From the NCBI GenBank assembly GCA_002205965.3, contig NADL03000512.1, positions 1,054,001 to 1,118,000 of the forward strand: 64,000 nt of DNA, written 5' to 3'. The notes below the pieces were generated by a model. That model was given only the letters and a program-made list of their open reading frames with translations, did not search any database and was not told the DNA's origin. The DNA comes from Kappaphycus alvarezii (Eukaryota > Rhodophyta > Florideophyceae > Gigartinales > Solieriaceae). The translations under genes and the position numbers were made by a program. Shown here one piece after another: positions 7,351-64,000 of the stretch. How positions within the stretch are numbered: position 1 is the first letter of the stretch; every line of letters starts with the position of its first letter.

Positions 7351-8333
7351 TCAGAGTGATAGCTGCATTCGGGGCTTCCAGATGTGGAAGTTGTCATCAC
7401 GGAGATTTTTGAAACTGTCGATACGAACTCCAGAGGAATCTGCGACTAATGGAGTACAGTGGTTTGAAACTGTGATTGAGCAAAGTAGATACACAGTGAT
7501 ACCAGGTGCAGTATACTTATTCCTATGCTTGATGTGTTTGTCGCGGTCGTGCCTTGTCTGGAACAGGCGATTGCAGCAGACACAGGGAGCAATGAATGTT
7601 CTCCTCTCGGCGCGGTTCCGACACTTCTGACCTCCTCTGTGCTGCTCGAACTGCTTTGGTCCGGCAAATTTCAGCTGATAAAGATCGCAAACAAGGAAGG
7701 GATCTTTCGGCTTGGATGCCGGGACAGGGAATGGAGATCGAGATTTAGGAGCGAGGGGAAGAGGGGCCGGCGAGAGATGTTCGACGGAGAGAGGAGTCGG
7801 AACCCTTGCAGGTGGAGGAACAGATGCAAGAGGGGGAGCAGTAGGCGACAGAGGAAACTGAGAAAAAGTACCTGGAAACGTAGCAGGCTGAACTGGAGTC
7901 GGAAAAGCAGGAGCGAGAGAGGAAGAAACAAAAGAAAAAAATTTGACTGCAACAGCAGGCCTGGTATTCCAGCGACCTTGTTTGGCCTTTTTGATGCGAG
8001 TAGATGACACAGGAAGGGTTTTGAGCGAATTTTGATGGGCTTTTTCGACGACTTTCCTGCAGCAGACCTCTTATTTCCAAGGGTAAGGATATGCAGAAGG
8101 AAGTCTTTCTTCGGGGGAGGAGAAGGAGGGATGAAAATTACGTTTGGAGTGGTAGCGGTAGAAGGGACGTCATCACCCTCGCCGTCCGACTCGATGGCTG
8201 AGTCGTCAATGAAGTGACACTTGGGGCGAGGGAATTCTTGTGAGTCGAAGCAGATCTTGCGAACGACGGGATCTTCTGGGACGATCTCGATGCCGCGACG
8301 AAAGACGGAACGATAGATGGCCACCGAAGGCAA
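7351..8333 (-). pseudogene. Copia element 1: N-terminal proline-rich and C2H2-like finger region
   Basis: The start of the polyprotein region, near 8333, matches the same region of Copia element 2 (M-P-S-V-A-I-Y-R-S-V-F-R-R in one, a close variant in the other). After a long Pro/Ser/Leu-rich stretch it shows two C/H-rich blocks resembling C2H2 fingers (ending H-R-G-G-Q-K-C and C-C-N-R-L-F-Q-T-R-H-D-R-D-K-H), then the start of gag (F-H-I-W-K-P-R-M). Fingers in front of gag are unusual for Copia. The region is broken. Confidence 0.6.
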
Positions 8334-8339
8334 GGATAT

Positions 8340-8655
8340 GCGAGGTTAAGCGAGGTGTAAGGTACTAGAGTGGGTATATACAGAAAGAACGAGTTTGAAA
8401 CGGTTTGGACTTACTGTTAAAACGATCCACAGGCCGTGAAACAAACCTAGGTCTGTAGCAAAGAGACGAAACAGGTAGCAACGAGAAGAAGTCGGGCCGC
8501 AAGATAATCTATTTGTGGTGCAGAGATGGAGAACGAAGACTGGCCGCAAAACCAATCGAGGTAGGAAGTCCAGAGACTACAAAAACTAGATAGGCCACAA
8601 GACAGAAGTGAGTATATAATGCAGAGACGACGTAGAGGTCACGTCCAAACCAACA
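8340..8655 (-). repeat. Copia element 1 leader or 5' LTR
   Basis: This segment matches the equivalent region of Copia element 2 (about 46260-46583) and is repeated at the left end of block C (50655-51035). On the minus strand it can start with TG near 8655, and a TATA-like ATTATATA lies at about 8613-8620, so it looks like an LTR promoter/leader. No matching repeat is recognised at the other end of the element. Confidence 0.5.
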
Positions 8656-8733
8656 GCATTTTTTTAGTCCTTCACCTGCGCGAAGTTTTTTCCCTCCCCT
8701 ACACGGAGTGGTCGCCGCCGAAGAACGTGAGGC

Positions 8734-9698
8734 CTAAAAGGTAAGTTGTTGAGGAGTGTTAGCGGCCTGGGCGCATAATCTGATAGAGGGAAGGAAGAGG
8801 TGGGACGAGGGAGAAAAAGAAGGAAGGGGTGAGAGAAGTAGAGTAAAAGAGAGAATGAGAGAGAGAAGGCGCCCGATACGGTCCTTTTCAATTTCGGATG
8901 ATTCAAAGGCAAGCCGCTCACGCCCCAAATTCAACCGTTCCCTACCCAGCTCCACCCTCGCCAGATCAGCGTCGCGTAAGTGCATTACAAACCTGTCCAT
9001 TTCTCTAGTTGAAATCAGCTCGTTGTTCTTTTTCGTCTTTTTGCGTGGTCGCTGAGACTCAACCCTCTCCCTTGCTTCACTAGGACTTCCATCGTCTGAA
9101 TTGTCAGAGCAGAAGTGGTTCGTTGCAAGATTCATGAGAACCCCCCAAGTCTTTCCTTCACTTGATCTAGCTCTTTCACAGCTTGCTTCTCCGACCCCTT
9201 TCTCGTCTCTATATCCTCCCGCTCTTCTCGCATCATAAGAAGGAGCCCATCCATCTCCCCCACATCACCACCAACCCCCGATCGAAGCTGGTCGCGCTTA
9301 TCAGACTTGCCAAAGGATGAATGAAGCCTCTCATACCTATCTTGTGCACATTTTGCCGACACCCTTTGCGTGGTGTTCGGATTTCCGTTTAACTTCTCCG
9401 CCACCAACTCGAAGCGCTTCGACAAGTTGCCGTAAGATGCGATATGGGCCTTTGCCGTCGCCACCTAGCGCAAAATAATAAGGCCTTCTTCAGACGAAAA
9501 TCTCAAGTGATGTCCTTTTTTCTCCTTGTCTGGGGAGGGCGGGAGTGTTGAGATAACTTTGGCGCCAGAAGGAGCTCCTTCGTTCGATACTTCTTGTGTT
9601 GGACTTACAACCTGGGTACTTACTGGTTCACACCCATCGCTATGGTCGGTGTTTTCCGGTTGTACCGGAGCAAGCGGGTGGATATTGTTTGTGAACAT
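8734..9698 (-). pseudogene. Myb/SANT-like DNA-binding protein gene, copy A (interrupted)
   Basis: Translation from the ATG at 9698 gives a Pro/Ser/Thr-rich N-terminus of about 65 residues. A Myb/SANT-like domain follows: helix 1 around R-F-S-S-E-E-G-L, helix 2 Y-G-N-L-S-K-R-F-E-L-V-A-E-K-L-N, helix 3 V-S-A-K-C-A-Q-D-R-Y-E-R-L. A charged coiled-coil tail with repeated E-R-L-N-L-G-R-E-R-L-A-F-E comes last. This layout fits Myb/SANT-like proteins of lower eukaryotes, some of which accompany Harbinger transposons. An in-frame TAG lies inside the SANT domain (9465-9467), and the reading frame shifts at a C6 run near 9132. Both also occur in block C. The start lies just after the G-rich repeat. It is a pseudogene, or the sequence carries errors shared by both copies; partner and target are unknown. 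Confidence 0.55.
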
Positions 9699-9702
9699 GA
9701 TG

Positions 9703-9870
9703 CGTGGAGATGGGGGAGATTGGAGGGTGGTGGGAAGGAGATAGGGGGGCGATGGGGGGTAGGGGCGAGATGGGGGAGATTGGGGGCGATGGGGGGTAGG
9801 GGCGAGATGGGGGGAGATTGGGGGCGATGGGGGGTAGGGGCGAGATTGGGGGGGAGACTGGGGGGATATG
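9703..9870. repeat. G-rich minisatellite upstream of the Myb/SANT-like gene
   Basis: A unit of about 36-40 bases, built from GATGGGGGGTAGGGGCGAGA and GGGGGAGATTGGGGGC words, is repeated about three times with imperfect flanking units. Runs of four to seven G every few bases could form G-quadruplexes on the plus strand. G-run lengths differ between copies A and C (5 versus 6), while the unit number looks the same. Because it sits just upstream of the ATG at 9698 (minus strand), it would be in the promoter or 5' UTR. Confidence 0.85.
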
Positions 9871-9944
9871 GGAAGGGTCCGATTTGCCGCGGACAGCGAA
9901 GATTTTTGCAAGTACAGGGTACTGTTTGTCTCCCGCGTTAACAT

Positions 9945-10330
9945 TTCTCACAGCCGTTCACTAACTAGTAGGATTTCAGGTGTGTTCGTCACAAGACAAT
10001 TGCAAAATTCTGCAATTCAATTACAGTCTGTAATTTTCAGTGAGGTTTTGGTCCTATTTAATTCTGAAAAGCGATGGCGTAAACCCACTACTGTACAAAC
10101 GCAAATTGTACAGCACAGTACATAAGTTTCCGAAAGGGAGAGAGTTCGATAGCTTGAAGTCAGCGGCTTGCTCTCAATAGGCACTGTAACAGAAACGGTA
10201 GGGCTTGCGAAAGGGGCGATGAAAGGTTGCTGTTATCTCGCAATGTGAAATTCTTGCACTACCGCGCTGCTGTCAGATTGCAAGGCAGGAAAGTCGCAGA
10301 TGAGCTTCCTCCAACTGGTAGCACGGGGGC
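9945..10330. other. Intergenic spacer between the Myb-like gene and the reverse-transcriptase element
   Basis: No gene is seen. It contains the inverted-repeat word TGTACAAACGCAAATTGTACA followed by CAGCACAGTAC at about 10091-10122, another example of the GTAC motif. Block C carries the same spacer at 52342-52721. Confidence 0.5.
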
Positions 10331-12149
10331 TCATTCACAGTAACAGATATGCTGGCCTAAACCCAGTGACTTGTGGTGTGCAGGCACGTGAATGTTGTGG
10401 CAGGTGCCAATGGCATTCCACTCTACCAGCACGTAGAGGGGAGGCCAGCAAGCAAACAAGACACACTCAAGGTCTCTGCCAAAGCGGAGTATCGCAGTAG
10501 AAGACTTGAAACGCTGGCTGGTGTCAGTTTTCACGAGCTCAATGACATCGGTGAACGCCGCAGGATGCCAGCCTCTGAGCGTTGAGATGGAGAAAGGAAC
10601 GGCCCTGTTTTTCCCTGACAATTCAGCAAGAAATCCTTCCTGTTTCCGCTTCTTCTCCGCGTGGGCAGCGCTGAGGCTTGTTAATGGGTTGAACATCCTC
10701 GCTCTGAGATAGGCGGGGGCAAGAGGGTTGAGGAAGGATACATCGCAGTAGTTCGTGCCACCGACAGCTCCCATCGCCGTGATATCCTATCTGGTCCTGT
10801 CTTGATACGTTATGGGGCCCAATGGGTGGACGTCGAGCGACCATTGGAAGGTCATTTTCGAGGAGGGTTACCTGGTTGTCATGGGGAGGACTGCGCTCAC
10901 AGCCGTAAACACAGTGCAGCAAGTGATCCCTGTAGACATTGAGCATTTCAGGGCATCATGCCTTAGGACAAGGAGTATTGGGGGCAAAAAAATGGGTCTG
11001 ACAGAAGCACTCGAAGCAAACGGAGAAACCCGTGCTCTTGATTTGTGTCTTCAAACCAGAACACGGTGCGCAGTAGACCCATCCTTTGGCTGCGGACAGG
11101 GACGTACTGGCGCGAGAGGCGCGGGTGCGGGTGTTGTCGAGCGACAGGGCCTCTTGCAGAGCCCCATGAACTGCATCTGTTAGGTCCTAGTGCAATGAAA
11201 GGTTGGAGGAGCAAAAGTTGCTAGGCGGAGGTCTGTCCGAAGGTGGGCAAGAGGCCCTCCGTGTGTAAAGGCAGCTACAGTATCCTCCTATTGCGTCAGG
11301 TGTTGAGGGGGGGCGGCAAAAACTTATAAGATAGCTGATGCGAAGCATCAGATGCCTGAAACGAAGCGGCGGCAGTGTCCTTCGCAGAAGTGAGACCGAT
11401 TCCCATCGGTGGTCGGCCTTTTCTCTTCGAGCGATTGGACGGGAAATTGTAGGTTCTTGAACATTGTGCTGTCGAGCGCTCCACCTCCCAGCGTACGGAC
11501 GCAGTTCTCGATTAGGTCGTCGAAATATTAAGCTCCTTTCCGTATGCAGGACGGCGGCACAAGTCGCAGAAGGAAGCCCACTTTGCAGACCCCAAAGCAA
11601 ATACGAAGTAATTGGAATGAAGCCCGAGCGTCTTCAATCTCCAGAATCGCGAGTAGGAAAGGCATGGAGGAGTGTAAATGGCCCAGAATGTGCTGTTCCA
11701 TGAACGCCTGGGAACTGATGGGCGCATTCAAAACCACAGTTCCCGCGCTGTATTCCTGTTGCATGTCAGGGGGTTATGCGACCTGAACCGACGCGGAAGG
11801 GACAGTGAGCCACAACTCCTTGCATTTGGAGAGGGCGAGATGAAGACCACAAAGTTTGGCCTCAGGGGAAGAGAGAGCCTCGATCTCCTTCAGTATGGCC
11901 CTGTGTTTGGCCGCGATGTAGCCGCCGTCATGATACCAAAACTCCAAAAGCAGTATATCTAACCCTGCGTCCTCCTCGCCGAGTGCAGACAGTAATTCTT
12001 TGATCATCAGAGCAGTGCCAATAGTGATCCATGGATTGGCGAGGAAGACACAAGTCATGTAAATGTTGAGCAACATACATAAAGATGAGTGTCATATTGT
12101 CTCTACAAGTCGAAATCCCTCCTAGACTGCAAGTAACGCTGGTTTTCAC
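10331..12149 (-). pseudogene. Degraded reverse-transcriptase element, copy A
   Basis: Minus-strand frames show parts of a reverse-transcriptase protein family known to me from algae, fungi, sponges and cnidarians. At 11774-12076 lies a polymerase block with Y-H-D-G-G-Y-I in place of the catalytic Y/F-x-D-D, then L-H-L-A-L-S-K-C-K. At 11528-11764 is the thumb-side block G-T-V-V-L-N-A-P-I-S-S-Q-A-F ending F-L-L-R-L-V-P-P. At 10331-10774 is the C-terminal nuclease-like block with C-D-V-S-F-L-N-P-L-A-P and F-S-I-S-T-L-R-G-W-H-P-A-A. The pieces are in different frames, with at least four breaks, and the second catalytic Asp is changed to Gly, so it is inactive. No LTRs are seen; it resembles a LINE-like element. 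It sits upstream of the diphosphatase gene on the opposite strand. Confidence 0.7.
11335..11351. repeat. Perfect small hairpin CTGATGC-GAA-GCATCAG
   Basis: A seven-base perfect inverted repeat with a GAA triloop lies inside the reverse-transcriptase relic and is kept in block C near 53728-53744. It could be chance or a structural element of the retroelement RNA. Confidence 0.5.
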
Positions 12150-12275
12150 CGGGTTTCAAGCCAAAGTGCACTGTATATGGTATGCACAGAGGTTGGTTTG
12201 TAGGCGAGAGACTACATTCGTTTTGCATCGGCAGTTCATAATCTCGCGCGAACTCAACTAGCCAACAGCGTTCCC
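12150..12275 (+). promoter_or_regulatory. Candidate promoter region of the diphosphatase gene, copy A
   Basis: The 126 bases before the ATG at 12276 contain GTGCACTGTATATGGTATGC, a TATA-like word inside an imperfect palindrome, about 100 bases upstream of the ATG. The same sequence occurs before copies B and C. Copy A lacks three bases near 12253 that B and C have (GCGCGATCAACTC versus GCGCGAACTC). This is only positional evidence. Confidence 0.25.
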
Positions 12276-13306
12276 ATGTCTTCCACTACCAACGCAAATT
12301 CTCCTGAAGAACAAGCCCCTGTCCGTCTTGGTGTCATAACCGACATTCAATACGCAGACAAACCTGACCAATTCATCGATGTAAGTTGCGCAACCTTCCA
12401 CGAACCCAGTCTCTTGTACCATCTCGATGTACAAGAATCATTCTTTTCAATTCGAGCAGTTCGCTTCTACCCTTCTGGCCGTGTCAGATATTTTCATTTA
12501 AAACACAGTACGTAGGCAAAATCCGCGAATTCTCCAAAATACTCGCAAAGACGGAACTCGCTATAGACCATCTTAACGAGCAACGTCCTTCTGCGATCAT
12601 CCATCTTGGTGACATTGTCGACGGCAATGAAACCTTGGACCAAACCCGCTCTGATCTGGAGCAAGTTCTCCAGCGCCTGAAAAAGCTCCGTTCTCCATTG
12701 TTTCATGTGCTTGGGAATCATTGCTTACAAGCAGGGCACGGTTACCTCTTTGATAAGTTGAAACTCTCCGATGGCTCCTACTACTGCCATGACCTCTCCC
12801 CATTTTGGCGACTCATTGTACTGGACACTGTTGATAAATCTATTCAACGCGTAAGGGACAGCCCATGTAACAAGCTTGCACATGACTATTCGAGAAAACA
12901 TACTGTGGACCCAAACGCAGTCGGCTGGAACGGTGGATTGGGACCTGACCAAATGCAGTGGCTACGCCATGTATTAGCAGAGACAAAAGAGCAACGTCGA
13001 TGAGCGGTGGTGTGTGGTCACTTGCCCATTTTAGAAGAGGCGTCAAGTGATCAGCATGTTGTTTGGGACGCGCAAGAACTGGAGCAACTCTTGCTTAGCA
13101 GCGGTGTTGTTAAGGCGTACTTGTGTGGTCACTACCATGACGGGGGTTACGCAAAGAAAAATGGCATCCATCACGTCACTTTTGAGGCTATGATCGATTC
13201 GACCGATGACAAGGGCGCGGCAGGAGTTGTGCAGCTCACCAAGAAATTCATCAGTATAGAGGGATTCGGTGCCCTGACCTCAAGGAAATTGCCTTTGGCA
13301 ACGTAG
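12276..13306 (+). pseudogene. ADP-ribose/CDP-alcohol diphosphatase-like metallophosphoesterase, copy A
   Basis: The product resembles ADPRM-type, manganese-dependent ADP-ribose/CDP-alcohol diphosphatases, which hydrolyse ADP-ribose, CDP-choline and related compounds. Metallophosphoesterase motifs appear in order: G-V-I-T-D-I-Q-Y-A-D (D23, Q25; the D-x-Q form is typical of ADPRM), H-L-G-D-I-V-D-G-N (D70), G-N-H (N105, H106), C-G-H-L-P-I, and G-H-Y-H-D-G-G-Y, with the late C-terminal strands of the family. Exon 1 is 12276-12380 and exon 2 starts at 12509 after a GT-AG intron. An in-frame TGA at 13001-13003, about codon 200, separates the two halves in the same frame, and copy C has the same stop. 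About 300 codons in all, near the family's usual length. It converges on TOR 557 bp downstream. Family confidence is high; whether it is functional is unclear. Confidence 0.75.
12381..12508 (+). other. Intron of the diphosphatase gene, copy A
   Basis: The donor is GTAAGT and the acceptor ACACAG. Removing 128 bases joins ...F-I-D to Y-V-G-K-I in phase 0, which is what the family alignment needs. Homologous introns are 128 bases in copy B and 129 in copy C. In A and B a different single base is missing, while the exon frames stay in register only if the segment is spliced. Confidence 0.8.
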
Positions 13307-13863
13307 TCAGTCGAAACTTTACCCCTAATCATCCAAAACTTTGTATTCCAAATGCATTTGCCATTTTCGCTACCTAAAAGAACCGGAACAACCTTTGATC
13401 TCCAACCTCTTCGATCATCCAAAGTTGCCACCAAGTTCGATGACCACCATTTAGTCTTGTTGTGGGGTACATGCAGTACTGTACTGTAATTCGGTATAGC
13501 CTTACAGTTACAAATACAGTTGTTGGGTTGTTACAATAAGCTAATTTTCTGCTCTAAGCTTGCCTAGTACCCTGCACCCGTTTTCCGAGTTAATTTCTAT
13601 TCCTGTACAGTACAGTACTGAATGTACATTGCTATCTAGTTTCCTCCAATTAAATTCCAGTTAGGTCTTTTGTACACTGCAAAGTCCGCAATACTGTCGG
13701 GTACTTATTCCCAGTAACTTTCTTTCCATGCCAACCGGTTCCTCGATCATCGCGCCATCGCGCCTGACGCGGCGGTGGCGCGGTGGCGCAGATCAGTGCC
13801 TCCTCGGTGCGGATTCGCCTTGTCCCTTCGCCCTCAACGCAGACCCACCATCTCCGAGAAGCC
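13307..13863. other. Convergent intergenic region between diphosphatase and TOR, copy A
   Basis: Two genes end towards each other here. The tract contains CAGTACTGTACTGTA at about 13471-13485 and CCTGTACAGTACAGTACTG at about 13602-13620, plus T-rich stretches. Such palindromes could act in transcription termination or 3'-end formation from both sides; this is inference from position. Blocks B (21124-21680) and C (55705-56262) are the same. Confidence 0.5.
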
Positions 13864-16800
13864 TCACCAAAATGCACACCAACCCATGAACAGCGCACAG
13901 AGGTTCTCTACACTACGTGCCTCTTTGATGAGTAACATTACTTGCTGCTCGACCGAGATCGGCTGCGATCCAAAGTCCGTTCCACGCAATTTGTCCTCGA
14001 AACGATTCAGGGCTAGTTGTGCTTTGGCATTCGCAGCACTTGATATCCACGGTTGGTTCGGATCCTCGTCCTGCATTACTCGCATTTGCATAAGTCGCTC
14101 TCTTGCGCTTGGTGTCTGAAGGTTGACAGGATCCACCATGTCATCGTCATCTGCTACACCATCATCTTGACTGGGAGTGGGTATGCCACCGGCATCACTT
14201 TGCTCTGTCGCTGCTGCTGAATACCGTTCTTGCCTATTTAACCTTCGAACAGAAGCCGCCAAGCTACCCGTTTCTTGAATACTCCGAGCTAGTTCTCGCA
14301 ACCCAGGGTCCTCGAAATTTGCCAGTGATGATGCCATAGACCCAAACTGTCTCGGGCTTGTCTTCTCCGTGCGGCGATCCACGGCCTCCTCTTCCTTCAA
14401 CCGAGCCATCTCATCTGCAGTAACTAGTTTCCATCGGATAAGCGGATCATACACAAACACTTCCATCATCGCCATTAACGACTCTCTGGACGCCTGCTGT
14501 CGTAGCACTTCCATGGTAGCTTCAGCTGTTTGTTGAAAGTAGCCCTGCACGCCGCACGGTTCTAAAGCCTGTACAAGCATTCTCGTTAACCTGAAGGGCA
14601 CCTTCTCAGGATATTTCTCCCGTTTTGTAGCAACTTCGAAGCAGTCACCAAAGTCTATGTGCAGCACTTTTCCAGTTAGACGCTCAATCATAATGTTTGA
14701 AGGGTGGCGGTCGCCCAGCCCCAACAAGTACCCGGCCATGGAAGTTGTTGCTAGAGATCTGGCGTATGTGCTCCGCTTGTCCAACCAAAGCTCAGAGTTT
14801 CTGCTACGCAACCAAAGGACCTTGGCTATGTCTTGACTCACAGTGTTCTCCAACATCAATTCAAACAAATCAACCTTGTGTAAGAGCGGAAGACGGTCTG
14901 GGTCCGGCGCAATATTCAGCATGACTTTGTGCTCTACGTTAGTCATGATTGAACGGGCATCACGATATTCTTTCACAAGGGCATGCATTGTATCACAATC
15001 TGGCACCCAACCAATGAGACCGGCATTGGCAGAGAGGGCCACAACAGAGAACGTTTTCAATTCTACGCCGTTCAAAAGGTCCTTTCTGCTACCCTTCCCG
15101 AAGAGCCGGTTAATAAGGTTAAACACTTGCATGACCCTTTCATCCTGCCGCAGATCTTCATGGCCTTTCAAGAGAAATCGATATTGCTGACCATCGCTGC
15201 CAAGAATGGACATTTTGCGAGGCCGCTGCTTGCTTTGCACAACTTGCATCTGGCCTCCGAAAGCGTATATGCCCACTGCCTTTCTGCTTTGCAAAGGATC
15301 GTAAGTCCCGGGTACTGCGAGTAGCAAGTTTGAGCAGTTGCTAAGTCGATCCGAAACACAACCCAAGTCAATGACTGTTGTTAATTGCTGCAACCTCTGA
15401 ATCTTTTTAAAGGCTGATTGGTACACTTGCCAAGCGTCGCTGAGGTATTTTTGCAATTGTGTGACACTCTGACCGGTCTCATAGCCAGCACGAAACTTTC
15501 GGAGGTTGCCGCCAGCAATCGCAAGCTCAGCTCCAAACTCCCTGGCGAAATTTCTTTCACAGGACGTCTCTGGGCCCCTCTCTAGCTCTTCGTGCAATGG
15601 CAGGAGAATATCTATCATTCCCTCAACGTTCTTCTCGACAAAGTAGCACTTCGAGGCTTCCTCAAGTCGTTCATGCCATTGCTCGACCCACAAAATCGCT
15701 GAGCGCACGAGCTCCGTCGCCACCATTTCTGACTGTTCAACAATTTCAACATGGTGTCGCCGCAGGTCATGCAAAATGGCAGCTGCCGCTTCTCCACTAT
15801 CTGCACTGTGTGACGTTCTTGGTCCTCGGGCGACTGTCAATGGATACACGGCAACTTGCGGATGTTCTTGTCCGATTCGTGTAAGAAGTTCCCTAACTCC
15901 TCTTTGCACATTTTGCGATGGGGAATGCAGGCGAGCGATTATCTGAGGAACAACTTCTAGCCACATCGCAATGTTGGTCACTCGAAAGTATTCATCGAAG
16001 AATGCGTGAAGACCAGCATGCCCGCCATAGTTGAACCAAAGAGTTAGCACTTTCAACGAATCCTGCAGCCTCGTTTTTCCTTCAAGATCAATCGATTTGA
16101 AGTATCCCTTGATGGCTTGGACCAAGTAAGCTCTTCCCCTGTGGCCGGGCCTTATTTCACTCAAGAGATGAGCGTCATGCCACCCTTTTCGGCTTGGATC
16201 TTTGTTCATTTTCACCACTGACGCCTCTGCCTCAACAAGCTTTTCAAACCGAACGGCATTATACTCGCCCAATAATGCCACGCCTTGTACCAATCTGGCC
16301 GAATGATGGTAGCGCGCTCCGCATATACGAGAGCGTCCTCTGAAGTGAGAAGCATCTCACCTGTGGGACTTACTCCGGCGTCACTGAAGTCTAGCAACTT
16401 GTGGCCCCATTTCGATAGTTTTGAGAAGACTTCCCCAGCTAACGTGCTGTTGTCCTCGCCGAAATTCTCGATGACCCGTGGATTCTCCCCAAGAAAATTC
16501 GCTACCCCCCTCCGGAAGGTAATCGTTGCAACAGGCACTCAAGGCATTGTACGCCGGTTTCTTCTGATCCAGAGCCCACAAGTGTTTGATACACGCCAAA
16601 CCTTACTTCTAAGTCATCAATGTTCATTACTGATTCGGCGTCCCATCTATGTGAAAGATGTGATCCAGCGCCCCCGGAGACATATGCGTGTGGCTGCTCG
16701 CAGAGCGCCGTTCCTGACATGAACGATGAGCATTCGCAAGGCTTCACTGGCAAGAGGCAAGCGATGTGTTTTCCTGCACATGCCAGCAAATTCAAGCCAC

Positions 16801-19292
16801 TGGTCTTTGTTCTCGCTGGCTTCATCACAAGAGAGCGTATCATGAGAAGCTTGTACCATGTAAACCAGTCTTGCTTACAACGTTTCAGTCTGTCCGTCCA
16901 GATGCTTTGGAGTCGTTGCTTGCCGAACACCGCTGCGTCCTTGGCCGCATGCGAAGGTATTGAATTATCTCTTCAAGTTCCACCAGTACCTGCGCGCTAA
17001 CTACTTCGTTGTACGCGCTGGGGTAACCTTCTGAGACCCGAGCTGTAAGGTCAAGATCAAGCTTCCTCCGGGCTTCCCGCAGCTGAACCTCCGCAGCATC
17101 CAAATATTTGCGGTTATCTTTTCCGCGCTTAATGAAAACCAGTGTGCTGTAGAACGACCTCTCGTAGGTTTCCGGAGGAATTAGCCCGACCCACTCCTCA
17201 AACTCACCCCACAGCTCCAAGTCGAAGGCAACGGAGGCGCCTTTCCCTTCTAATGCAAGCTGACATAACGCTTCATTCTCGCCGATTAACGCTTCGCGTG
17301 CCCTCCGCAGAATGGAATTCATGTCTCTCCACTTCCCGAGCTCATTGAGACAACGAAGTTGCCTAGAAGATGATTCCAACTTTTCTTGTCTCTGTAAAGC
17401 GCTTCACCCGCAGTAAGGCCAGTTGGAATTGCAGGATTATCTCCGATTATGTACATCTCTGTCTGGTCATACACCTCGAGCGCATCGTCCCACCTCTGCA
17501 GTCTTTCAAGCCACTCTTCTTGTAACACTTCTCCCGTCCTTTCCCGGTATTCCCTTAAGGTCCCCAGCCGACTCATTCTGGCCAAGTTTCTCATAGATGG
17601 CAATGAGGCCGTTCTTCCCACATACGTCCTCTCTCAAGAGCTCTGGATCTCAAGGTGTTGCCCGTAATCATGCTCACGGTACCTAATTGCCTTGGCATAA
17701 GCTCCGCATTTACAGGCAGTAGACGCCAGCCTTTCCGTTCGCACCGGAAGGGTTTCTCATCATGGTCCATAAATTCAAACAAATTGAGAAGGCCTTGGAG
17801 GACTGTGAGGGGTATAGAGGTGGACGTGAGCGCCATCTCTAGAGAATCACATATCTTTGTACGAGTGTAGTCACTTAGTTGGGCCTTCCAGCACGAAAGA
17901 AACGCTGGATTCAGCAACTGCCGAATAAAGGGCGGATATGAGTCAGAAATACGACCACAGGCGCGGAAGGCTGGCGATCCAGATTGCTCGAACATAGTGG
18001 CCCCGATGTTCTCATACCACACATTCCAATCCTCTGCAGTGAAATTTTGGCTAACCTCCCACTTGTTTACAAGGGCCTCCTCCAGGACATGCGCACGTGG
18101 ATGAGTGGTCCTTGTCCCAGACGGAAGAGAGGGGCGTCCTTCAAATGCGCCGCCCCTGGCAGAAGACTAGGGCTGATGTCGAGCTCAAGCTCCTCCGTTC
18201 CTTCAATCTCGCCTGTAACATTTTCGGAATCAGAAATGAACTGCAAGTTTCTCTCTGATGGAGCGGTGTCATCGTCAAGCAATTCTCGAACCACGTCAGG
18301 GTCTTTTTGATGAGAAGCAACTTCAATCTGCGGTAAATCCCCGTATTGATGCGTCCAACGTTGCTCGCCTTCAACGCTTTTGTAACCACCGGTACAAACA
18401 AGTCAAACTCTGTTCCAGTTCTCTTGCCAAGTTCGGTCAGTGCAGAGGCTGCAAGGGCGGACAACCTCTCAATACCGATTACTTCCTGTTTGTATCCTCC
18501 AGGTCTTCTGCCCTCGACATTCCCGCTGTTTCTAGTGATGTACCGCTCGTGTGCCCCGGCGAGCACAACTAGGAGAGGATGAACTACGCTGGAGATAGCC
18601 TCCACAGCATGAATATCCTTCAGCAATATGATGAGAGTACTTATCGCCTGCTCCCGGACAACGTGCAACCGACTGCTCGTTATCACTCGTGTTATTCCGA
18701 TTAAGACTACTTTTCGGTATTCATCTACGAGTGGTCCAAACGATTCCAAAGTTCTTAATACTGCTGTGGAAATCACGCCACTCGCGGTTGAGTCTTTGGC
18801 AAGGGCAGACAGTAGCGGCGGTAAGACTGTAGGAATAATCGGTTTGAATTCGTCCCCAATGGCTGTCCTCAGCCTGGAGAGCAGAGTGCAAGAGCTCGCT
18901 ATACAAGCGACAGAGTTCTTGGCGGTACTTAGGTAAGTCCACACGAGAAGAACAGTATCAAACGTGTACGGCATGTAGTCATAACCCGCAGTTGCTATTA
19001 TGTCTGCCAGACGTTGCATAATGTGCTGCTGAATCTGAGTGAAAGCTGAGCCTAATCTCGGATCTCTCGAAGAAGAGTGGTGAAGAAGCCAAAGGATTCG
19101 CGGGACGACGGCATGCAAAAAATTAACACATTTTGAGCCGACGACTTCAAGATGCTCACAATTGCTTGACACGCCTCTCGATGATGTACACGAAGTCGCG
19201 GATTCCTGATAATTTTGTGCAAAATGTCAAGAGCGGCGGATGGAAAGAAAATCAGGACTGGCAGTAAAGGGATGCTCGAGTAGGGCCATTAA
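13864..19292 (-). pseudogene. TOR: TOR kinase, copy A, 5'-truncated
   Basis: The C-terminal 1,800 or so codons of the target-of-rapamycin kinase lie here. From the stop at 13864 a single open frame of 809 codons covers the end of FAT, the FRB domain (about 15378-15708), the PI3K-like kinase domain with L-L-K-G-H-E-D, G-L-G-D-R-H-P-S-N (about 14695-14721) and H-I-D-F-G-D, and the FATC end ...G-W-C-A-F-W. Upstream of 16264 the reading frame is broken many times by one- or two-base losses relative to copy B (for example near 16264, 16719, 16825, 16947, 17359, 17567, 17658, 17748 and 18165). At 19292 the gene stops abruptly and is joined to the reverse-transcriptase relic of block B, so about the first 1,122 codons and the promoter are missing. 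Even if the small indels were sequence errors, this copy could not make full-length TOR. Confidence 0.9.
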
Positions 19293-19962
19293 GCGCTCCA
19301 CCTCCCAGCGTACGGACGCAGTTCTCGATTAGGTCGTCGAAATATTAAGCTCCTTTCCGTATGCAGGACGGCGGCACAAGTCGCAGAGGAAGCCCTTTGC
19401 AGACCCCAAAGCAAATACGAAGTAATTGGAATGAAGCCGAGCGTCTTCAATCTCCAGAATCGCGAGTAGGAAAGGCATGGAGGAGTGTAAATGGCCCAGA
19501 ATGTGCTGTTCCATGAACGCCTGGGAACTGATGGGCGCATTCAAAACCACAGTTCCCGCGCTGTATTCCTGTTGCATGTCAGGGGGTTATGCGACCTGAA
19601 CCGACGCGGAAGGGACAGTGAGCCACAACTCCTTGCATTTGGAGAGGGCGAGATGAAGACCACGAAGTTTGGCCTCAGGGGAAGAGAGAGCCTCGATCTC
19701 CTTCAGTATGGCCCTGTGTTTGGCCGCGATGTAGCCGCCGTCATGATACCAAAAACTCCAAAAGCAGTATATCTAACCCTGCGTCCTCCTCGCCGAGTGC
19801 AGACAGTAATTCTTTGATCATCAGAGCAGTGCCAATAGTGATCCATGGATTGGCGAGGAAACACAAGTCATGTAAATGTTGAGCAACATACATAAAGATG
19901 AGTGTCATATTGTCTCTACAAGTCGAAATCCCTCCTAGACTGCAAGTAACGCTGGTTTTCAC
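19293..19962 (-). pseudogene. Reverse-transcriptase element, copy B, truncated
   Basis: Only the polymerase part is left: the Y-H-D-G-like block and the G-T-V-V-L-N-A-P-I-S-S-Q-A-F block. The part corresponding to the C-terminal nuclease-like domain was lost at the A/B junction at 19292. Otherwise it is nearly identical to copies A and C. Confidence 0.7.
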
Positions 19963-31287: not shown

Positions 31288-31289
31288 AA

Positions 31290-52087: not shown

Positions 52088-52091
52088 GATG

Positions 52092-52258
52092 CGTGGAGAT
52101 GGGGGGAGATTGGAGGGTGGTGGGAAGGAGATAGGGGGGCGATGGGGGGTAGGGGCGAGATGGGGGGAGATTGGGGGCGATGGGGGGTAGGGGCGAGATG
52201 GGGGAGATTGGGGGCGATGGGGGGTAGGGGCGAGATTGGGGGGGAGACTGGGGGGATA
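52092..52258. repeat. G-rich minisatellite, copy C
   Basis: The same array as in block A with the same apparent unit number; individual G runs differ by one (for example GATGGGGGGAGATT versus GATGGGGGAGATT). Confidence 0.85.
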
Positions 52259-52341
52259 TGGGAAGGGTCCGATTTGCCGCGGACAGCGAAGATTTTTGCA
52301 AGTACAGGGTACTGTTTGTCTCCCGCGTTAACATTTCTCAC

Positions 52342-52721
52342 AGCCGTTCACTAACTAGTAGGATTTCAGGTGTGTTCGTCACAAGACAATTGCAAAATTC
52401 TGCAATTCAATTACAGTCTGTAATTTTCAGTGAGGTTTTGGTCCTATTTAATTCTGAAAAGCGATGGCGTAAACCCACTACTGTACAAACGCAAATTGTA
52501 CAGCACAGTACATAAGTTTCCGAAAGGGAGAGAGTTCGATAGCTTGAAGTCAGCGGCTTGCTCTCAATAGGTACTGTAACAGAAACGGTAGGGCTTGCGA
52601 AAGGGGCGATGAAAGGTTGCTGTTATCTCGCAATGTGAAATTCTTGCACTACCGCGCTGCTGTCAGATTGCAAGGCAGGAAAGTCGCAGATGAGCTTCCT
52701 CCAACTGGTAGCACGGGGGGC
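52342..52721. other. Intergenic spacer, copy C
   Basis: Equivalent to 9945-10330, with the same TGTACAAACGCAAATTGTACA inverted repeat. No gene is seen. Confidence 0.5.
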
Positions 52722-54543: not shown

Positions 54544-54672
54544 CGGGTTTCAAGCCAAAGTGCACTGTATATGGTATGCACAGAGGTTGGTTTGTAGGCG
54601 AGAGACTACATTCGTTTTGCATCGGCAGTTCATAATCTCGCGCGATCAACTCAACTAGCCAACAGCGTTCCC

Positions 54673-55704
54673 ATGTCTTCCACTACCAACGCAAATTCTC
54701 CTGAAGAACAAGCCCCTGTCCGTCTTGGTGTCATAACCGACATTCAATACGCAGACAAACCTGACCAATTCATCGATGTAAGTTGCGCAACCTTCCACGA
54801 ACCCAGTCTCTTGTACCATCTCGATGGTACAAGAATCATTCTTTTCAATTCGAGCAGTTCGCTTCTACCCTTCTGGCCGTGTCAGATATTTTCATTTAAA
54901 ACACAGTACGTAGGCAAAATCCGCGAATTCTCCAAAATACTCGCAAAGACGGAACTCGCTATAGACCATCTTAACGAGCAACGTCCTTCTGCGATCATCC
55001 ATCTTGGTGACATTGTCGACGGCAATGAAACCTTGGACCAAACCCGCTCTGATCTGGAGCAAGTTCTCCAGCGCCTGAAAAAGCTCCGTTCTCCATTGTT
55101 TCATGTGCTTGGGAATCATTGCTTACAAGCAGGGCACGGTTACCTCTTTGATAAGTTGAAACTCTCCGATGGCTCCTACTACTGCCATGACCTCTCCCCA
55201 TTTTGGCGACTCATTGTACTGGACACTGTTGATAAATCTATTCAACGCGTAAGGGACAGCCCATGTAACAAGCTTGCACATGACTATTCGAGAAAACATA
55301 CTGTGGACCCAAACGCAGTCGGCTGGAACGGTGGATTGGGACCTGACCAAATGCAGTGGCTACGCCATGTATTAGCAGAGACAAAAGAGCAACGTCGATG
55401 AGCGGTGGTGTGTGGTCACTTGCCCATTTTAGAAGAGGCGTCAAGTGATCAGCATGTTGTTTGGGACGCGCAAGAACTGGAGCAACTCTTGCTTAGCAGC
55501 GGTGTTGTTAAGGCGTACTTGTGTGGTCACTACCATGACGGGGGTTACGCAAAGAAAAATGGCATCCATCACGTCACTTTTGAGGCTATGATCGATTCGA
55601 CCGATGACAAGGGCGCGGCAGGAGTTGTGCAGCTCACCAAGAAATTCATCAGTATAGAGGGATTCGGTGCCCTGACCTCAAGGAAATTGCCTTTGGCAAC
55701 GTAG
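54673..55704 (+). pseudogene. ADP-ribose/CDP-alcohol diphosphatase-like metallophosphoesterase, copy C
   Basis: Exon 1 is 54673-54777 and exon 2 starts at 54907. The intron here is 129 bases and has no in-frame stop, so an unspliced message would stay open and insert 43 residues after F-I-D. The TGA at 55399-55401 lies in frame between the D-x-Q/G-D/G-N-H half and the G-H/G-H-x-H half, as in copy A. Sequence and motifs are otherwise the same as in copies A and B. Confidence 0.75.
54778..54906 (+). other. Intron of the diphosphatase gene, copy C
   Basis: A GTAAGT donor and ACACAG acceptor bound 129 bases. Being a multiple of three without stops, it hides inside the open frame. Its intron nature is shown by the family alignment (F-I-D joined to Y-V-G-K) and by the length change in copies A and B. 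Confidence 0.8.
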
Positions 55705-56262
55705 TCAGTCGAAACTTTACCCCTAATCATCCAAAACTTTGTATTCCAAATGCATTTGCCATTTTCGCTACCTAAAAGAACCGGAACAACCTTTGATCTC
55801 CAACCTCTTCGATCATCCAAAGTTGCCACCAAGTTCGATGACCACCATTTAGTCTTGTTGTGGGGTACATGCAGTACTGTACTGTAATTCGGTATAGCCT
55901 TACAGTTACAAATACAGTTGTTGGGTTGTTACAATAAGCTAATTTTCTGCTCTAAGCTTGCCTAGTACCCTGCACCCCGTTTTCCGAGTTAATTTCTATT
56001 CCTGTACAGTACAGTACTGAATGTACATTGCTATCTAGTTTCCTCCAATTAAATTCCAGTTAGGTCTTTTGTACACTGCAAAGTCCGCAATACTGTCGGG
56101 TACTTATTCCCAGTAACTTTCTTTCCATGCCAACCGGTTCCTCGATCATCGCGCCATCGCGCCTGACGCGGCGGTGGCGCGGTGGCGCAGATCAGTGCCT
56201 CCTCGGTGCGGATTCGCCTTGTCCCTTCGCCCTCAACGCAGACCCACCATCTCCGAGAAGCC
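55705..56262. other. Convergent intergenic region, copy C
   Basis: Same content as 13307-13863, with the two GTACTGTAC palindrome clusters between the ends of the diphosphatase and TOR genes. Confidence 0.5.
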
Positions 56263-59200
56263 TCACCAAAATGCACACCAACCCATGAACAGCGCACAGA
56301 GGTTCTCTACACTACGTGCCTCTTTGATGAGTAACATTACTTGCTGCTCGACCGAGATCGGCTGCGATCCAAAGTCCGTTCCACGCAATTTGTCCTCGAA
56401 ACGATTCAGGGCTAGTTGTGCTTTGGCATTCGCAGCACTTGATATCCACGGTTGGTTCGGATCCTCGTCCTGCATTACTCGCATTTGCATAAGTCGCTCT
56501 CTTGCGCTTGGTGTCTGAAGGTTGACAGGATCCACCATGTCATCGTCATCTGCTACACCATCATCTTGACTGGGAGTGGGTATGCCACCGGCATCACTTT
56601 GCTCTGTCGCTGCTGCTGAATACCGTTCTTGCCTATTTAACCTTCGAACAGAAGCCGCCAAGCTACCCGTTTCTTGAATACTCCGAGCTAGTTCTCGCAA
56701 CCCAGGGTCCTCGAAATTTGCCAGTGATGATGCCATAGACCCAAACTGTCTCGGGCTTGTCTTCTCCGTGCGGCGATCCACGGCCTCCTCTTCCTTCAAC
56801 CGAGCCATCTCATCTGCAGTAACTAGTTTCCATCGGATAAGCGGATCATACACAAACACTTCCATCATCGCCATTAACGACTCTCTGGACGCCTGCTGTC
56901 GTAGCACTTCCATGGTAGCTTCAGCTGTTTGTTGAAAGTAGCCCTGCACGCCGCACGGTTCTAAAGCCTGTACAAGCATTCTCGTTAACCTGAAGGGCAC
57001 CTTCTCAGGATATTTCTCCCGTTTTGTAGCAACTTCGAAGCAGTCACCAAAGTCTATGTGCAGCACTTTTCCAGTTAGACGCTCAATCATAATGTTTGAA
57101 GGGTGGCGGTCGCCCAGCCCCAACAAGTACCCGGCCATGGAAGTTGTTGCTAGAGATCTGGCGTATGTGCTCCGCTTGTCCAACCAAAGCTCAGAGTTTC
57201 TGCTACGCAACCAAAGGACCTTGGCTATGTCTTGACTCACAGTGTTCTCCAACATCAATTCAAACAAATCAACCTTGTGTAAGAGCGGAAGACGGTCTGG
57301 GTCCGGCGCAATATTCAGCATGACTTTGTGCTCTACGTTAGTCATGATTGAACGGGCATCACGATATTCTTTCACAAGGGCATGCATTGTATCACAATCT
57401 GGCACCCAACCAATGAGACCGGCATTGGCAGAGAGGGCCACAACAGAGAACGTTTTCAATTCTACGCCGTTCAAAAGGTCCTTTCTGCTACCCTTCCCGA
57501 AGAGCCGGTTAATAAGGTTAAACACTTGCATGACCCTTTCATCCTGCCGCAGATCTTCATGGCCTTTCAAGAGAAATCGATATTGCTGACCATCGCTGCC
57601 AAGAATGGACATTTTGCGAGGCCGCTGCTTGCTTTGCACAACTTGCATCTGGCCTCCGAAAGCGTATATGCCCACTGCCTTTCTGCTTTGCAAAGGATCG
57701 TAAGTCCCGGGTACTGCGAGTAGCAAGTTTGAGCAGTTGCTAAGTCGATCCGAAACACAACCCAAGTCAATGACTGTTGTTAATTGCTGCAACCTCTGAA
57801 TCTTTTTAAAGGCTGATTGGTACACTTGCCAAGCGTCGCTGAGGTATTTTTGCAATTGTGTGACACTCTGACCGGTCTCATAGCCAGCACGAAACTTTCG
57901 GAGGTTGCCGCCAGCAATCGCAAGCTCAGCTCCAAACTCCCTGGCGAAATTTCTTTCACAGGACGTCTCTGGGCCCCTCTCTAGCTCTTCGTGCAATGGC
58001 AGGAGAATATCTATCATTCCCTCAACGTTCTTCTCGACAAAGTAGCACTTCGAGGCTTCCTCAAGTCGTTCATGCCATTGCTCGACCCACAAAATCGCTG
58101 AGCGCACGAGCTCCGTCGCCACCATTTCTGACTGTTCAACAATTTCAACATGGTGTCGCCGCAGGTCATGCAAAATGGCAGCTGCCGCTTCTCCACTATC
58201 TGCACTGTGTGACGTTCTTGGTCCTCGGGCGACTGTCAATGGATACACGGCAACTTGCGGATGTTCTTGTCCGATTCGTGTAAGAAGTTCCCTAACTCCT
58301 CTTTGCACATTTTGCGATGGGGAATGCAGGCGAGCGATTATCTGAGGAACAACTTCTAGCCACATCGCAATGTTGGTCACTCGAAAGTATTCATCGAAGA
58401 ATGCGTGAAGACCAGCATGCCCGCCATAGTTGAACCAAAGAGTTAGCACTTTCAACGAATCCTGCAGCCTCGTTTTTCCTTCAAGATCAATCGATTTGAA
58501 GTATCCCTTGATGGCTTGGACCAAGTAAGCTCTTCCCCTGTGGCCGGGCCTTATTTCACTCAAGAGATGAGCGTCATGCCACCCTTTTCGGCTTGGATCT
58601 TTGTTCATTTTCACCACTGACGCCTCTGCCTCAACAAGCTTTTCAAACCGAACGGCATTATACTCGCCCCAATAATGCCACGCCTTGTACCAATCTGGCC
58701 GAATGATGGTAGCGCGCTCCGCATATACGAGAGCGTCCTCTGAAGTGAGAAGCATCTCACCTGTGGGACTTACTCCGGCGTCACTGAAGTCTAGCAACTT
58801 GTGGCCCCATTTCGATAGTTTTGAGAAGACTTCCCCAGCTAACGTGCTGTTGTCCTCGCCGAAATTCTCGATGACCCGTGGATTCTCCCCAAGAAAATTC
58901 GCTACCCCCCCTCCGGAAGGTAATCGTTGCAACAGGCACTCAAGGCATTGTACGCCGGTTTCTTCTGATCCAGAGCCCACAAGTGTTTGATACACGCAAA
59001 CCTTACTTCTAAGTCATCAATGTTCATTACTGATTCGGCGTCCCATCTATGTGAAAGATGTGATCCAGCGCCCCCCGGAGACATATGCGTGTGGCTGCTC
59101 GCAGAGCGCCGTTCCTGACATGAAACGATGAGCATTCGCAAGGCTTCACTGGCAAGAGGCAAGCGATGTGTTTTCCTGCACATGCCAGCAAATTCAAGCC

Positions 59201-62200
59201 ACTGGTCTTTGTTCTCGGCTGGCTTCATCACAAGAGAGCGTATCATGAGAAGCTTGTACCATGTAAACCAGTCTTGCTTACAACGTTTCAGTCTGTCCGT
59301 CCAGATGCTTTGGAGTCGTTGCTTGCCGAACACCGCTGCGTCCCTTGGCCGCATGCGAAGGTATTGAATTATCTCTTCAAGTTCCACCAGTACCTGCGCG
59401 CTAACTACTTCGTTGTACGCGCTGGGGTAACCTTCTGAGACCCGAGCTGTAAGGTCAAGATCAAGCTTCCTCCGGGCTTCCCGCAGCTGAACCTCCGCAG
59501 CATCCAAATATTTGCGGTTATCTTTTCCGCGCTTAATGAAAACCAGTGTGCTGTAGAACGACCTCTCGTAGGTTTCCGGAGGAATTAGCCCGACCCACTC
59601 CTCAAACTCACCCCACAGCTCCAAGTCGAAGGCAACGGAGGCGCCTTTCCCTTCTAATGCAAGCTGACATAACGCTTCATTCTCGCCGATTAACGCTTCG
59701 CGTGCCCTCCGCAGAATGGAATTCATGTCTCTCCACTTCCCGAGCTCATTGAGACAACGAAGTTTGCCTAGAAGATGATTCCAACTTTTCTTGTCTCTGT
59801 AAAGCGCTTCACCCGCAGTAAGGCCAGTTGGAATTGCAGGATTATCTCCGATTATGTACATCTCTGTCTGGTCATACACCTCGAGCGCATCGTCCCACCT
59901 CTGCAGTCTTTCAAGCCACTCTTCTTGTAACACTTCTCCCGTCCTTTCCCGGTATTCCCTTAAGGTCCCCACAGCCGACTCATTCTGGCCAAGTTTCTCA
60001 TAGATGGCAATGAGGCCGTTCTTCCCACATACGTCCTCTCTCAAGAGCTCTGGGATCTCAAGGTGTTGCCCGTAATCATGCTCACGGTACCTAATTGCCT
60101 TGGCATAAGCTCCGCATTTACAGGCAGTAGACGCCAGCCTTTCCGTTCGCACCGGAAGGGGTTTCTCATCATGGTCCATAAATTCAAACAAATTGAGAAG
60201 GCCTTGGAGGACTGTGAGGGGTATAGAGGTGGACGTGAGCGCCATCTCTAGAGAATCACATATCTTTGTACGAGTGTAGTCACTTAGTTGGGCCTTCCAG
60301 CACGAAAGAAACGCTGGATTCAGCAACTGCCGAATAAAGGGCGGATATGAGTCAGAAATACGACCACAGGCGCGGAAGGCTGGCGATCCAGATTGCTCGA
60401 ACATAGTGGCCCCGATGTTCTCATACCACACATTCCAATCCTCTGCAGTGAAATTTTGGCTAACCTCCCACTTGTTTACAAGGGCCTCCTCCAGGACATG
60501 CGCACGTGGATGAGTGGTCCTTGTCCCAGACGGAAGAGAGGGGCGTCCTTCAAATGCGCCGCCCCTGGCAGAAGACCTAGGGCTGATGTCGAGCTCAAGC
60601 TCCTCCGTTCCTTCAATCTCGCCTGTAACATTTTCGGAATCAGAAATGAACTGCAAGTTTCTCTCTGATGGAGCGGTGTCATCGTCAAGCAATTCTCGAA
60701 CCACGTCAGGGTCTTTTTGATGAGAAGCAACTTCAATCTGCGGTAAATCCCCGTATTGATGCGTCCAACGTTGCTCGCCTTCAACGCTTTTGTAACCACC
60801 GGTACAAACAAGTCAAACTCTGTTCCAGTTCTCTTGCCAAGTTCGGTCAGTGCAGAGGCTGCAAGGGCGGACAACCTCTCAATACCGATTACTTCCTGTT
60901 TGTATCCTCCAGGTCTTCTGCCCTCGACATTCCCGCTGTTTCTAGTGATGTACCGCTCGTGTGCCCCGGCGAGCACAACTAGGAGAGGATGAACTACGCT
61001 GGAGATAGCCTCCACAGCATGAATATCCTTCAGCAATATGATGAGAGTACTTATCGCCTGCTCCCGGACAACGTGCAACCGACTGCTCGTTATCACTCGT
61101 GTTATTCCGATTAAGACTACTTTTCGGTATTCATCTACGAGTGGTCCAAACGATTCCAAAGTTCTTAATACTGCTGTGGAAATCACGCCACTCGCGGTTG
61201 AGTCTTTGGCAAGGGCAGACAGTAGCGGCGGTAAGACTGTAGGAATAATCGGTTTGAATTCGTCCCCAATGGCTGTCCTCAGCCTGGAGAGCAGAGTGCA
61301 AGAGCTCGCTATACAAGCGACAGAGTTCTTGGCGGTACTTAGGTAAGTCCACACGAGAAGAACAGTATCAAACGTGTACGGCATGTAGTCATAACCCGCA
61401 GTTGCTATTATGTCTGCCAGACGTTGCATAATGTGCTGCTGAATCTGAGTGAAAGCTGAGCCTAATCTCGGATCTCTCGAAGAAGAGTGGTGAAGAAGCC
61501 CAAAGGATTCGCGGGACGACGGCATGCAAAAAATTAACACATTTTGAGCCGACTGACTTCAAGATGCTCACAATTGCTTGACACGCCTCTCGATGATGTA
61601 CACGAAGTCGCGGATTCCTGATAATTTTGTGCAAAATGTCAAGAGCGGCGGATGGAAAGAAATCAGGACTGGCAGTAAAGGGATGCTCGAGTAGGGCCAT
61701 TAAAGAATTGTTAGGCATTTCGTCTCGGCCCAACAGGGATTGTACCCTACCATCCGTTGGGAGACTCTTGATCCCCAAGAGCAAATTGGGAGAGGGACAC
61801 ATCATACTCTCCTTTCGAAGGCATTGCGTTCCTGACGCGGCGACTTGATATCGTATCGGGCGAATTTCCAGACTTTGGCGATTGGTCGTGATGCGAGGCA
61901 CCACTTATCGTGCTTGTCGCGGCTTCTCTAGTTTGCTGCGGCTGCCCGTACTGCAGATTAGGGATCGATTTCGAGTGGAACCTCTGCTGTTGCGGCCGTG
62001 CTGACCGACTGATGAACCAGGAAGAAAGAACCCGGGACCGTGGACAGCCGAATTTGCCATTTTGAATACAGAGCTGCCTTGACTATCCCCTCCAACTAGT
62101 CGATCTCCAGCTCTGCTTTGTCTCTTGCCAGCGTAATCGATAACAGCGGGTACTTGTTGTCTGCTGGGTCAACGGCACCTAATGACCCTAGCAGAATCCC

Positions 62201-64000
62201 TGCGGCAATCCGTACGTCAGAATCGCTTTCATTGGTAATTAGTTGGATGAGCTCAGAGAGTAGAGATGAATGGAGCACATAAGGCTTTGTCGCTTGTCCA
62301 GTGTTCTGTACATAGGCTGTGAGTGCCCTGATCGCAGCCTTCTTGTACGTAGGCTCTGCTGAAGGGGCCTCAAGCACAGACACGATGAGAAGCGGGACCA
62401 ACTCGGCCTCGTACTTCCCCAGATCTATACGGCTCATTGTCCCTCCCATTTCTGCAAGCGCCTGTAAGACTGGCAATGCAATAGTTGGTTCATTCGAGCG
62501 CTGGGCCTCTTGCAAACGCATCAAAATTGCGTCCATGAGGGAAGCAGTGTATGGCATTATTAGATTCGCCCCATGATGAACAAGAGTGTAAATCAGCTCC
62601 GTTGCCTCACGCCGGTCTCGTTCAAAAAACACACCATCGCATCGGAGTATAGTTAACAAGTGTAGAAGGTAGTCGCGCAGTACCGGTAATATTTCAGCCG
62701 GATTCTCCTTACTAAGGTCCCCCGCCATTGAGAGCGCCGAGTCCCGCATCATGAGACTCGAGTCATGAAGACAGAGGAATAGCTTGCCAGCATTTCTGGT
62801 TGCAAGAGGTAAGGGCGGAACACTGGCTCGTCCAGAGATCGGATTGCTATAAATCTAACATCAGTAGATGGATCAGCCACTGCGATCGCAAGTACTGATC
62901 CAGGATTGCGTGAATTCCCCGTCGCAGTTCATTTGGACGTCGACGACCCCCGTATGGACCCGCCCAAAGCTTAGCGGCCGACGCCATAAGTTTTGCTGAC
63001 GCTGCGACAGCCAATGCTCTGACCTTGACGCTATTGTACTCGGCATACCCGATCACAAACTCGGCAGCCAGGGATATGAAATCCTGTACACGCATGTCGG
63101 CAAAGTCAAGGTTGATGATGGCCTTCAAAGCAACGCACGGAGAGTTCTCCTGGTCTCTATCCGTCGACGAGCCTTTCATGTAGTCCAAGGAAGTCCCTTG
63201 ACTTGAAGAAGCCATAAGATCCTTCTTGACTAACGAATCTAAGCTCTTAGCACTGGGTTTTGATGAGAGAATGGAGCTGCTGTCAATTCGATGCAAGTCT
63301 TTAGATATCGGTGCTTCCCGGAAAAACTCTTGAGCACTGGGATCGACTCGTTTGCCTGCAAGGCTGCTCAGTTGTCCTTCATGTTCTTCCGGCAAGAGCT
63401 AGGGCCCATTGGCTGGGATGGGCTCTGCGGAAGACTTAGCACATTGTGTCTGAGGGAGAGAAACGATCTCGTCCTACCAACCACGCCTGCAGAAATCTCA
63501 TTCTCCATGGACCGCAGACTGCCTTGGACTGAAGAAGTTGGACCGTTACCCAAGATGCTATCCTTTCGGCTAGGAAGCCATTTCTTCAAGGTGCAGCTAT
63601 CAAATGCACCAACCTCAGGCGAATCAGACCTGCATATGTGGGCAAATCTTGGCTTATCTCAATGACCGCATCAACCAGGTCATTTGTGAAGTCCGCATTG
63701 AAAACAATTGTCAACATTCCATCCCGTACTGCTTGCTCAAAAACAGGGCTCCCCCTAGATGCCTTCGCCAGATGAGAAATAGTCTTGATTACAGCACGTT
63801 GTGGAAGTGTGAGCTTGTACGGCTCACACAAGGCATCTCTACATACCCCAAGCAAATCAGTCATCATGGGGCTGTGATCGTTCCTTGGCATCTGCTCTGC
63901 GATGACACTGAAAGAAAGCAGAGACAAACCCCTCTCTTCTGGCGGAAAACTCTCATTGCGGATCAGAGCCAGTGTGGACTTGTGTACAGAGTCCAAAAAT
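56263..64000 (-). pseudogene. TOR: TOR kinase, copy C, 5' end outside the window
   Basis: From the stop at 56263 one open frame of 910 codons spans late FAT, FRB (about 57777-58107), kinase and FATC, with the same catalytic motifs as copy A. Further upstream the frame changes near 58915 (a run of seven C on the plus strand, where B has eight), near 60714 (five T versus six in B), near 61500 and 61724, and several times between 62050 and 63600 (for example near 62149, 62789, 62896, 63391 and 63593). Many are one-base losses relative to B. The first 350 or so codons lie beyond 64000. Near 59012-59035 it shares with copy A a multi-base sequence that differs from B. I call it a likely pseudogene, with sequencing error as an alternative. 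Confidence 0.88.

Follow-up and report, generated by a model that had tools for sequence, protein, structure and literature searches.

A near-identical TOR segment occurring three times in a red algal contig, probably one locus over-represented by assembly

Introduction

Three copies of TOR taken at face value would suggest a raised dosage of a master growth kinase. A preliminary description reported such a situation in a 64-kb stretch of red algal DNA (the window, meaning here the whole of the stretch that was analysed): one series of elements, comprising a Copia leader, a Myb/SANT-like gene, a reverse-transcriptase relic, a diphosphatase and TOR, was said to recur as blocks A, B and C, through either a recent duplication or an assembly artefact. 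How many TOR loci does the window represent? If the repeat is mostly shaped by assembly, it is a caution that gene counts near such joins are unsafe. If the duplication of B and C is real, it is a fresh change in TOR copy number with a visible, transposon-linked cause.

Results

Three direct repeats of unequal extent

Self-comparison of the window bears out three near-identical stretches in direct orientation, with edges at 8269, 19292 and 50655 and identities of 99.41–99.65%. Positions 8269-19292 (A) match 50655-61703 (C) at 99.65%, positions 11475-19292 (A) match 19292-27109 (B) at 99.41%, and positions 19292-29413 (B) match 53869-64000 (C) at 99.64%, the homology between B and C being seen only as far as 29413 in B, where C meets the window edge. 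Judged from the sequence, the lengths and identities of these repeats exclude chance. The window contains 0 N bases, so none lies at any block edge. The repeated stretches are the following.

8269..19291, no strand assigned: block A, with the Copia leader, a Myb-like ORF, a relic ORF, a metallophosphoesterase and the C-terminal part of TOR; its end lies inside TOR.
11475..19291, no strand assigned: a 7817-base stretch of A that is repeated immediately as B, gapless and with its order kept.
19292..30615, no strand assigned: block B, with the metallophosphoesterase and the TOR that has the longest open frames; leader, Myb-like ORF and relic are absent.
50655..64000, no strand assigned: block C, with leader, Myb-like ORF, relic ORF, metallophosphoesterase and a TOR that crosses the window end.

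Contrary to the preliminary description, the three blocks do not carry the same series. B starts at the equivalent of position 11475 in A and 53869 in C, a point rightward of leader, Myb-like ORF and relic ORF, and therefore lacks all three; A is without the N-terminal part of TOR; and C leaves the window. The whole series together with a whole TOR is found in no block within view. Between B and C lie about 20 kb of other sequence, in which a diverged Copia relic is found.

Neighbouring ORFs and surrounding sequence

The gene adjoining TOR is recognized by Pfam as a metallophosphoesterase and has an open frame in C:

54598..55401, plus strand: metallophosphoesterase ORF of block C.

Its counterparts start at 12204 (A) and 20017 (B), with one frame break each, and it weakly matches a putative dimetal phosphatase (2nxf, E 0.00024). 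The Myb/SANT and reverse transcriptase labels of the preliminary description found no supporting Pfam match among the C ORFs tested. The supposed reverse-transcriptase relic, present by tblastn in A and C only, is probably one ORF of an unnamed relic family whose members lie at 565-984 (plus strand), 2972-3334 (minus), 52725-53177 (minus) and, as a copy of the latter, 10334-10786 (minus). Blastp finds these ORFs 23-34% alike, with E values from 2e-11 (best) to 0.003 (weakest), and the family has no match in Pfam. To the right of the Myb-like ORF, a G-rich tandem repeat with units of 10 and 37-38 bases occupies 9706-9872 and 52095-52262 and holds three one-base A/C indels.

To the right of the TOR of B, positions 31621-32579 (plus strand) may be a transposase relic, which I take to be Harbinger-like; its matches to HTH_Tnp_4 and DDE_Tnp_4 (each E 0.0019) are below the Pfam cut-offs. 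Two AT-rich regions, 34001-39000 and 47001-50654, have 30-41% GC per kb, against 47-54% in the blocks, and contain no ORF of 150 aa, the ORFs found there being of 102 and 115 aa. Neither ARAGORN nor Rfam at gathering score gave a match in the 64-kb window.

TOR in each block

The identification of TOR itself is upheld by Pfam. The gene is genuine and lies on the minus strand, with mTOR_dom, FAT, FRB, PI3/PI4 kinase and FATC above the Pfam cut-offs in the ORFs of B; read across three overlapping ORFs, these domains follow the TOR order of HEAT repeats, FAT, FRB, PI3/PI4-type kinase and FATC. Among solved structures, the chains that best match the middle ORF, P0001, are named TOR2 and mTOR.

21681..30615, minus strand: TOR in B, as three overlapping ORFs.
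27154-30615, minus strand: TOR ORF in B, with HEAT repeats and the start of mTOR_dom.
22505-27208, minus strand: TOR ORF in B, with the remaining mTOR_dom, FAT, FRB and kinase.
21681-22607, minus strand: TOR ORF in B, with the kinase end and FATC.
13864..19291, minus strand: TOR in A, cut at 19292, its frame broken by many one-base indels.
56263..64000, minus strand: TOR in C, its frame broken, most densely to the right of 61703.

The longest ORFs in the window are those of B (1567 and 1153 aa). P0001 and P0002 were read from B, which is in a single piece by construction; in A the match to P0001 is split into 16 ungapped pieces, and in C P0001 is split into 8 and P0002 into 7. P0002 (1152 residues) finds no counterpart in A, nor do the first 32 residues of P0001, the match starting at residue 33, so that A does not contain a complete TOR; it retains about 60% of the gene length, the C-terminal part. 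The TOR of C, with its many frame breaks, meets the window edge at residue 401 of P0002. Nor is the TOR of B intact as assembled, since its frame changes twice, near 22564 and at 27154-27208. Near 22564 a base is missing in B alone, A and C being open there. The other frame change inside TOR is common to B (27154-27208) and C (61750-61802) and may be an intron or a shared error.

A pattern search for TOR relatives in viral_contigs matched no stretch, and an exact 39-base TOR string had 0 matches there; in genome_contigs the pattern matched 3 times, none of the matches being a relative by tblastn.

Two versions of the TOR loop

At one loop of TOR (24433 in B, 59015 in C), A and C share a version that is 11 bases longer than that of B. 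In C the frame stays open through this loop owing to one additional base some 40 bases upstream; A is without that base. B also differs from both A and C by two substitutions in the TOR ORFs, a silent one and an Ala/Val change, and a third, Cys/Phe, distinguishes B and C in a part that A does not cover. Since the loop variant occurs in A and C and not in B, two real versions of TOR probably exist, be they alleles or paralogs. The variant argues against noise alone and provides the chief argument for a real second copy. An intron at the loop (24433, with a GT/AG look) was considered and rejected for B, where the frame is open through the loop.

Nature of the differences between copies

Over 11.0 kb, A and C differ by 8 substitutions and 26 indel events. 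B and C differ over 10.1 kb by 20 indel events and 11 substitution columns, seven of which are inside two gapped clusters, leaving four (about 0.04%); at one of these four, position 26960, all three copies differ. Between A and B, over 7.8 kb, there are 26 indel events and 10 substitution columns, and three columns are left once the seven in the same gapped clusters are taken away.

Copy-specific events were counted in a three-way alignment of the shared 7.8 kb. There are 30, comprising 27 indels and 3 substitutions, a count in which clusters were collapsed (16 rows of B becoming 13 events), two sites with all copies different and one end-of-alignment base were set aside, and both the collapsing and the assignment of events are matters of my own judgement. 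A alone accounts for 15 events (14 indels, 1 substitution), B for 13 (11 indels, 2 substitutions) and C for 2, both indels. One-base indels were tabulated separately, leaving aside indels of at least two bases and those inside gapped clusters. Homopolymer runs of two or more bases hold 31 of the 36 in this table, the background share of bases in such runs being 45% (p 4e-7). Two-copy stretches, in which the changed copy is assumed, contribute 14 of the 36 (7 A/C, 7 B/C). The A-only one-base indels are base losses in 10 cases out of 12. To the right of 61703, C lacks a base at all 7 of the indels that distinguish it from the long open frame of B, in 2.3 kb; set against only 2 C events in the whole shared unit, this change in indel rate has a p of 0.0007. 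An excess of indels over substitutions of nine to one is the pattern of an imperfect long-read consensus, unlike pseudogene decay. Both the share of indels among copy-specific events (27/30) and their location in runs (31/36) are of the sequencing-error type, or homotype, of false duplication.

Crowding of changes at the junction of A and B

The changes tend, with moderate significance, to pile up at 19292, A-only events from the left and B-only events from the right. Left and right of the unit midpoint lie 4 and 11 A-only events and 10 and 3 B-only events, respectively (Fisher p 0.021). The difference in position between A and B has a Mann-Whitney p of 0.013 for all events and of 0.0067 for indels only (14 in A, 11 in B); a post-hoc cut at 16000 gives p 0.003. 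The signal is weaker for one copy alone (KS p 0.04 for A, 0.07 for B), and the mean event position is off centre in B (z -2.6) and not significantly so in A (z 1.2). Contig ends that are low in depth, or that overlap and were left unmerged, would be expected to show such crowding; real repeats that were poorly polished would be a less specific alternative.

At the join itself, the 7817 bases that end A recur as the head of B, the two abutting with a single base in common. The join cuts TOR, and C is continuous across both of its breakpoints. Taken together, the abutted 7.8-kb overlap, the error-type differences crowding towards 19292 and the cutting of TOR at the join favour an artefact, and an assembly fault is the most likely origin of the A|B repeat.

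Copia elements and the left edge of C

Block C begins, at its left, in a fragment of the Copia leader, which in A belongs to a longer element.

3286..8656, minus strand: Copia element left of A, its extent taken from its ORFs and its homology to the second relic.
8269..8656, minus strand: Copia leader in A, continuous with the Copia element to its left.
40958..46742, minus strand: second, diverged Copia relic, 68-79% identical to the first and in the same orientation.
50655..51045, minus strand: Copia leader fragment in C, at the left edge of the block.

ORF 5797-7149 of the first element has Pol_BBD and gag_pre-integrs above cut-off and Retrotran_gag_2 below it. Five of the eight A/C substitutions, along with a 3-base indel, fall within the 388 bases of leader at the edge of C (p 3e-6 for the substitutions). 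Of these five substitution sites, four have the same state in A and in the related element at 46189; at the remaining site and at the indel of 3 bases, that element agrees with C. As the agreement is mostly with A, the leader of C seems to be a different Copia copy with a history of its own. That C starts in the leader, amid most of the A/C substitutions, suggests that its left edge reflects either recombination in the organism or an assembly mis-join through the Copia repeat, two possibilities that the sequence fits equally. The substitution cluster fits a junction within a repeat with a switch of version; a mis-join would look alike, and the downstream partner repeat would lie outside view. 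A solo LTR, as opposed to a full element, was rejected for this edge, since homology between the two Copia copies (left of A, and at 41-46.7 kb) continues across 8269 and both have an ORF running over that point.

Discussion

The best reading, which I hold to be probable with some reserve, is that one TOR locus has been over-represented by assembly. The junction at 19292 would be an unmerged overlap, in which the end of one contig (A) was set directly against the beginning of another (B) that covers the same 7.8 kb, and C would be an allele, a second version of this locus, attached by way of the Copia leader repeat. I infer that contig ends and alleles are the cause, not real repeats. Several observations stand against this: there is no N at the edges; the loop version common to A and C, with an open frame there in C, means that noise on a single sequence does not account for the copies; 20 kb lie between B and C; and the crowding is moderate and of a kind that poor polishing of real repeats could leave. 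The choice between duplication and artefact offered by the preliminary description thus leans towards artefact for the A|B repeat, by virtue of the overlap, the crowding of error-type differences and the cut TOR. Three full doses of TOR are unsupported, as A has no more than the C-terminal part of the gene, about 60%. Three real TOR genes are unlikely, and the triple occurrence of the locus is no usable evidence for raised TOR dosage.

One may, on the other hand, accept the assembly fault between A and B and still take B and C for two real direct-repeat TOR loci, produced by unequal recombination between the Copia leader and a second Copia fragment downstream. I regard this as possible, if doubtful. 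The position of the left edge of C inside the leader, with its cluster of substitutions, argues for it, as do the agreement of the 46189 element with A at four of five sites, which makes the leader of C look like a separate copy, and the loop variant, from which there are probably two versions at least. Recent real change in TOR copy number also has a precedent in the three consecutive Y-linked copies of a seed beetle, as reported in PMC10414808. A mis-join through the same Copia repeat would nevertheless yield the same topology, alleles would likewise show the four B/C substitutions (about 0.04%) left outside the gapped clusters, and the TOR of C is broken as assembled, most densely right of 61703. 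That a second TOR locus (B plus C) was newly gained by Copia-mediated unequal recombination, with different loop versions and before real divergence, is rather unlikely. I consider it very unlikely that all three blocks are real, as a direct duplication with a 42 kb period and a nested 7.8 kb tandem in which A is a 5'-truncated TOR pseudogene; the absence of N, the sharp edges and the one-base microhomology at A|B are in keeping with this, but the A-only ratio of 14 indels to 1 substitution is, on general knowledge, unlike pseudogene decay, and the A-only changes crowd at one end while those of B crowd at the same join. Extrachromosomal or somatic amplification of a TOR segment, read as a chain, appears the most improbable of all: the direct orientation of the blocks and the Copia repeat present at one of the junctions would suit it, yet no feature points to it particularly and the three blocks differ in their edges.

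Comparison with known systems

No paper that brings together TOR, tandem duplication, copy number, a red alga and Copia was found in the literature searched. False duplications from unmerged haplotypes (heterotype) or read errors (homotype) are documented, and gaps between duplicated pairs on one scaffold are among their primary signs according to PMC9516828. The present case resembles those described there in its near-identical copies on one sequence, its error-type differences and its abutted overlap. It differs in that no gap separates the copies, the window being free of N, and in that it is known from sequence alone; in my judgement, a gap is not obligatory for false duplication.

In Callosobruchus maculatus, three consecutive Y-linked copies of TOR have been described (PMC10414808). 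The likeness extends to the number and consecutive arrangement of the copies and to the loss of the TOR 5' end. All the Y copies, as reported there, lack exons 1-5 and have part of exon 6, whereas here only A is cut, and at the A|B join; TOR of the beetle has 25 exons, and that of B is read as three overlapping ORFs. Fungal genomes, as described in PMC2997006, contain TOR paralogs from segmental or whole-genome duplication, so that more than one TOR per genome is known. Those paralogs are long-standing, in contrast to the copies described here, whose substitution divergence outside the leader and the gapped clusters is about 0.03-0.04%.
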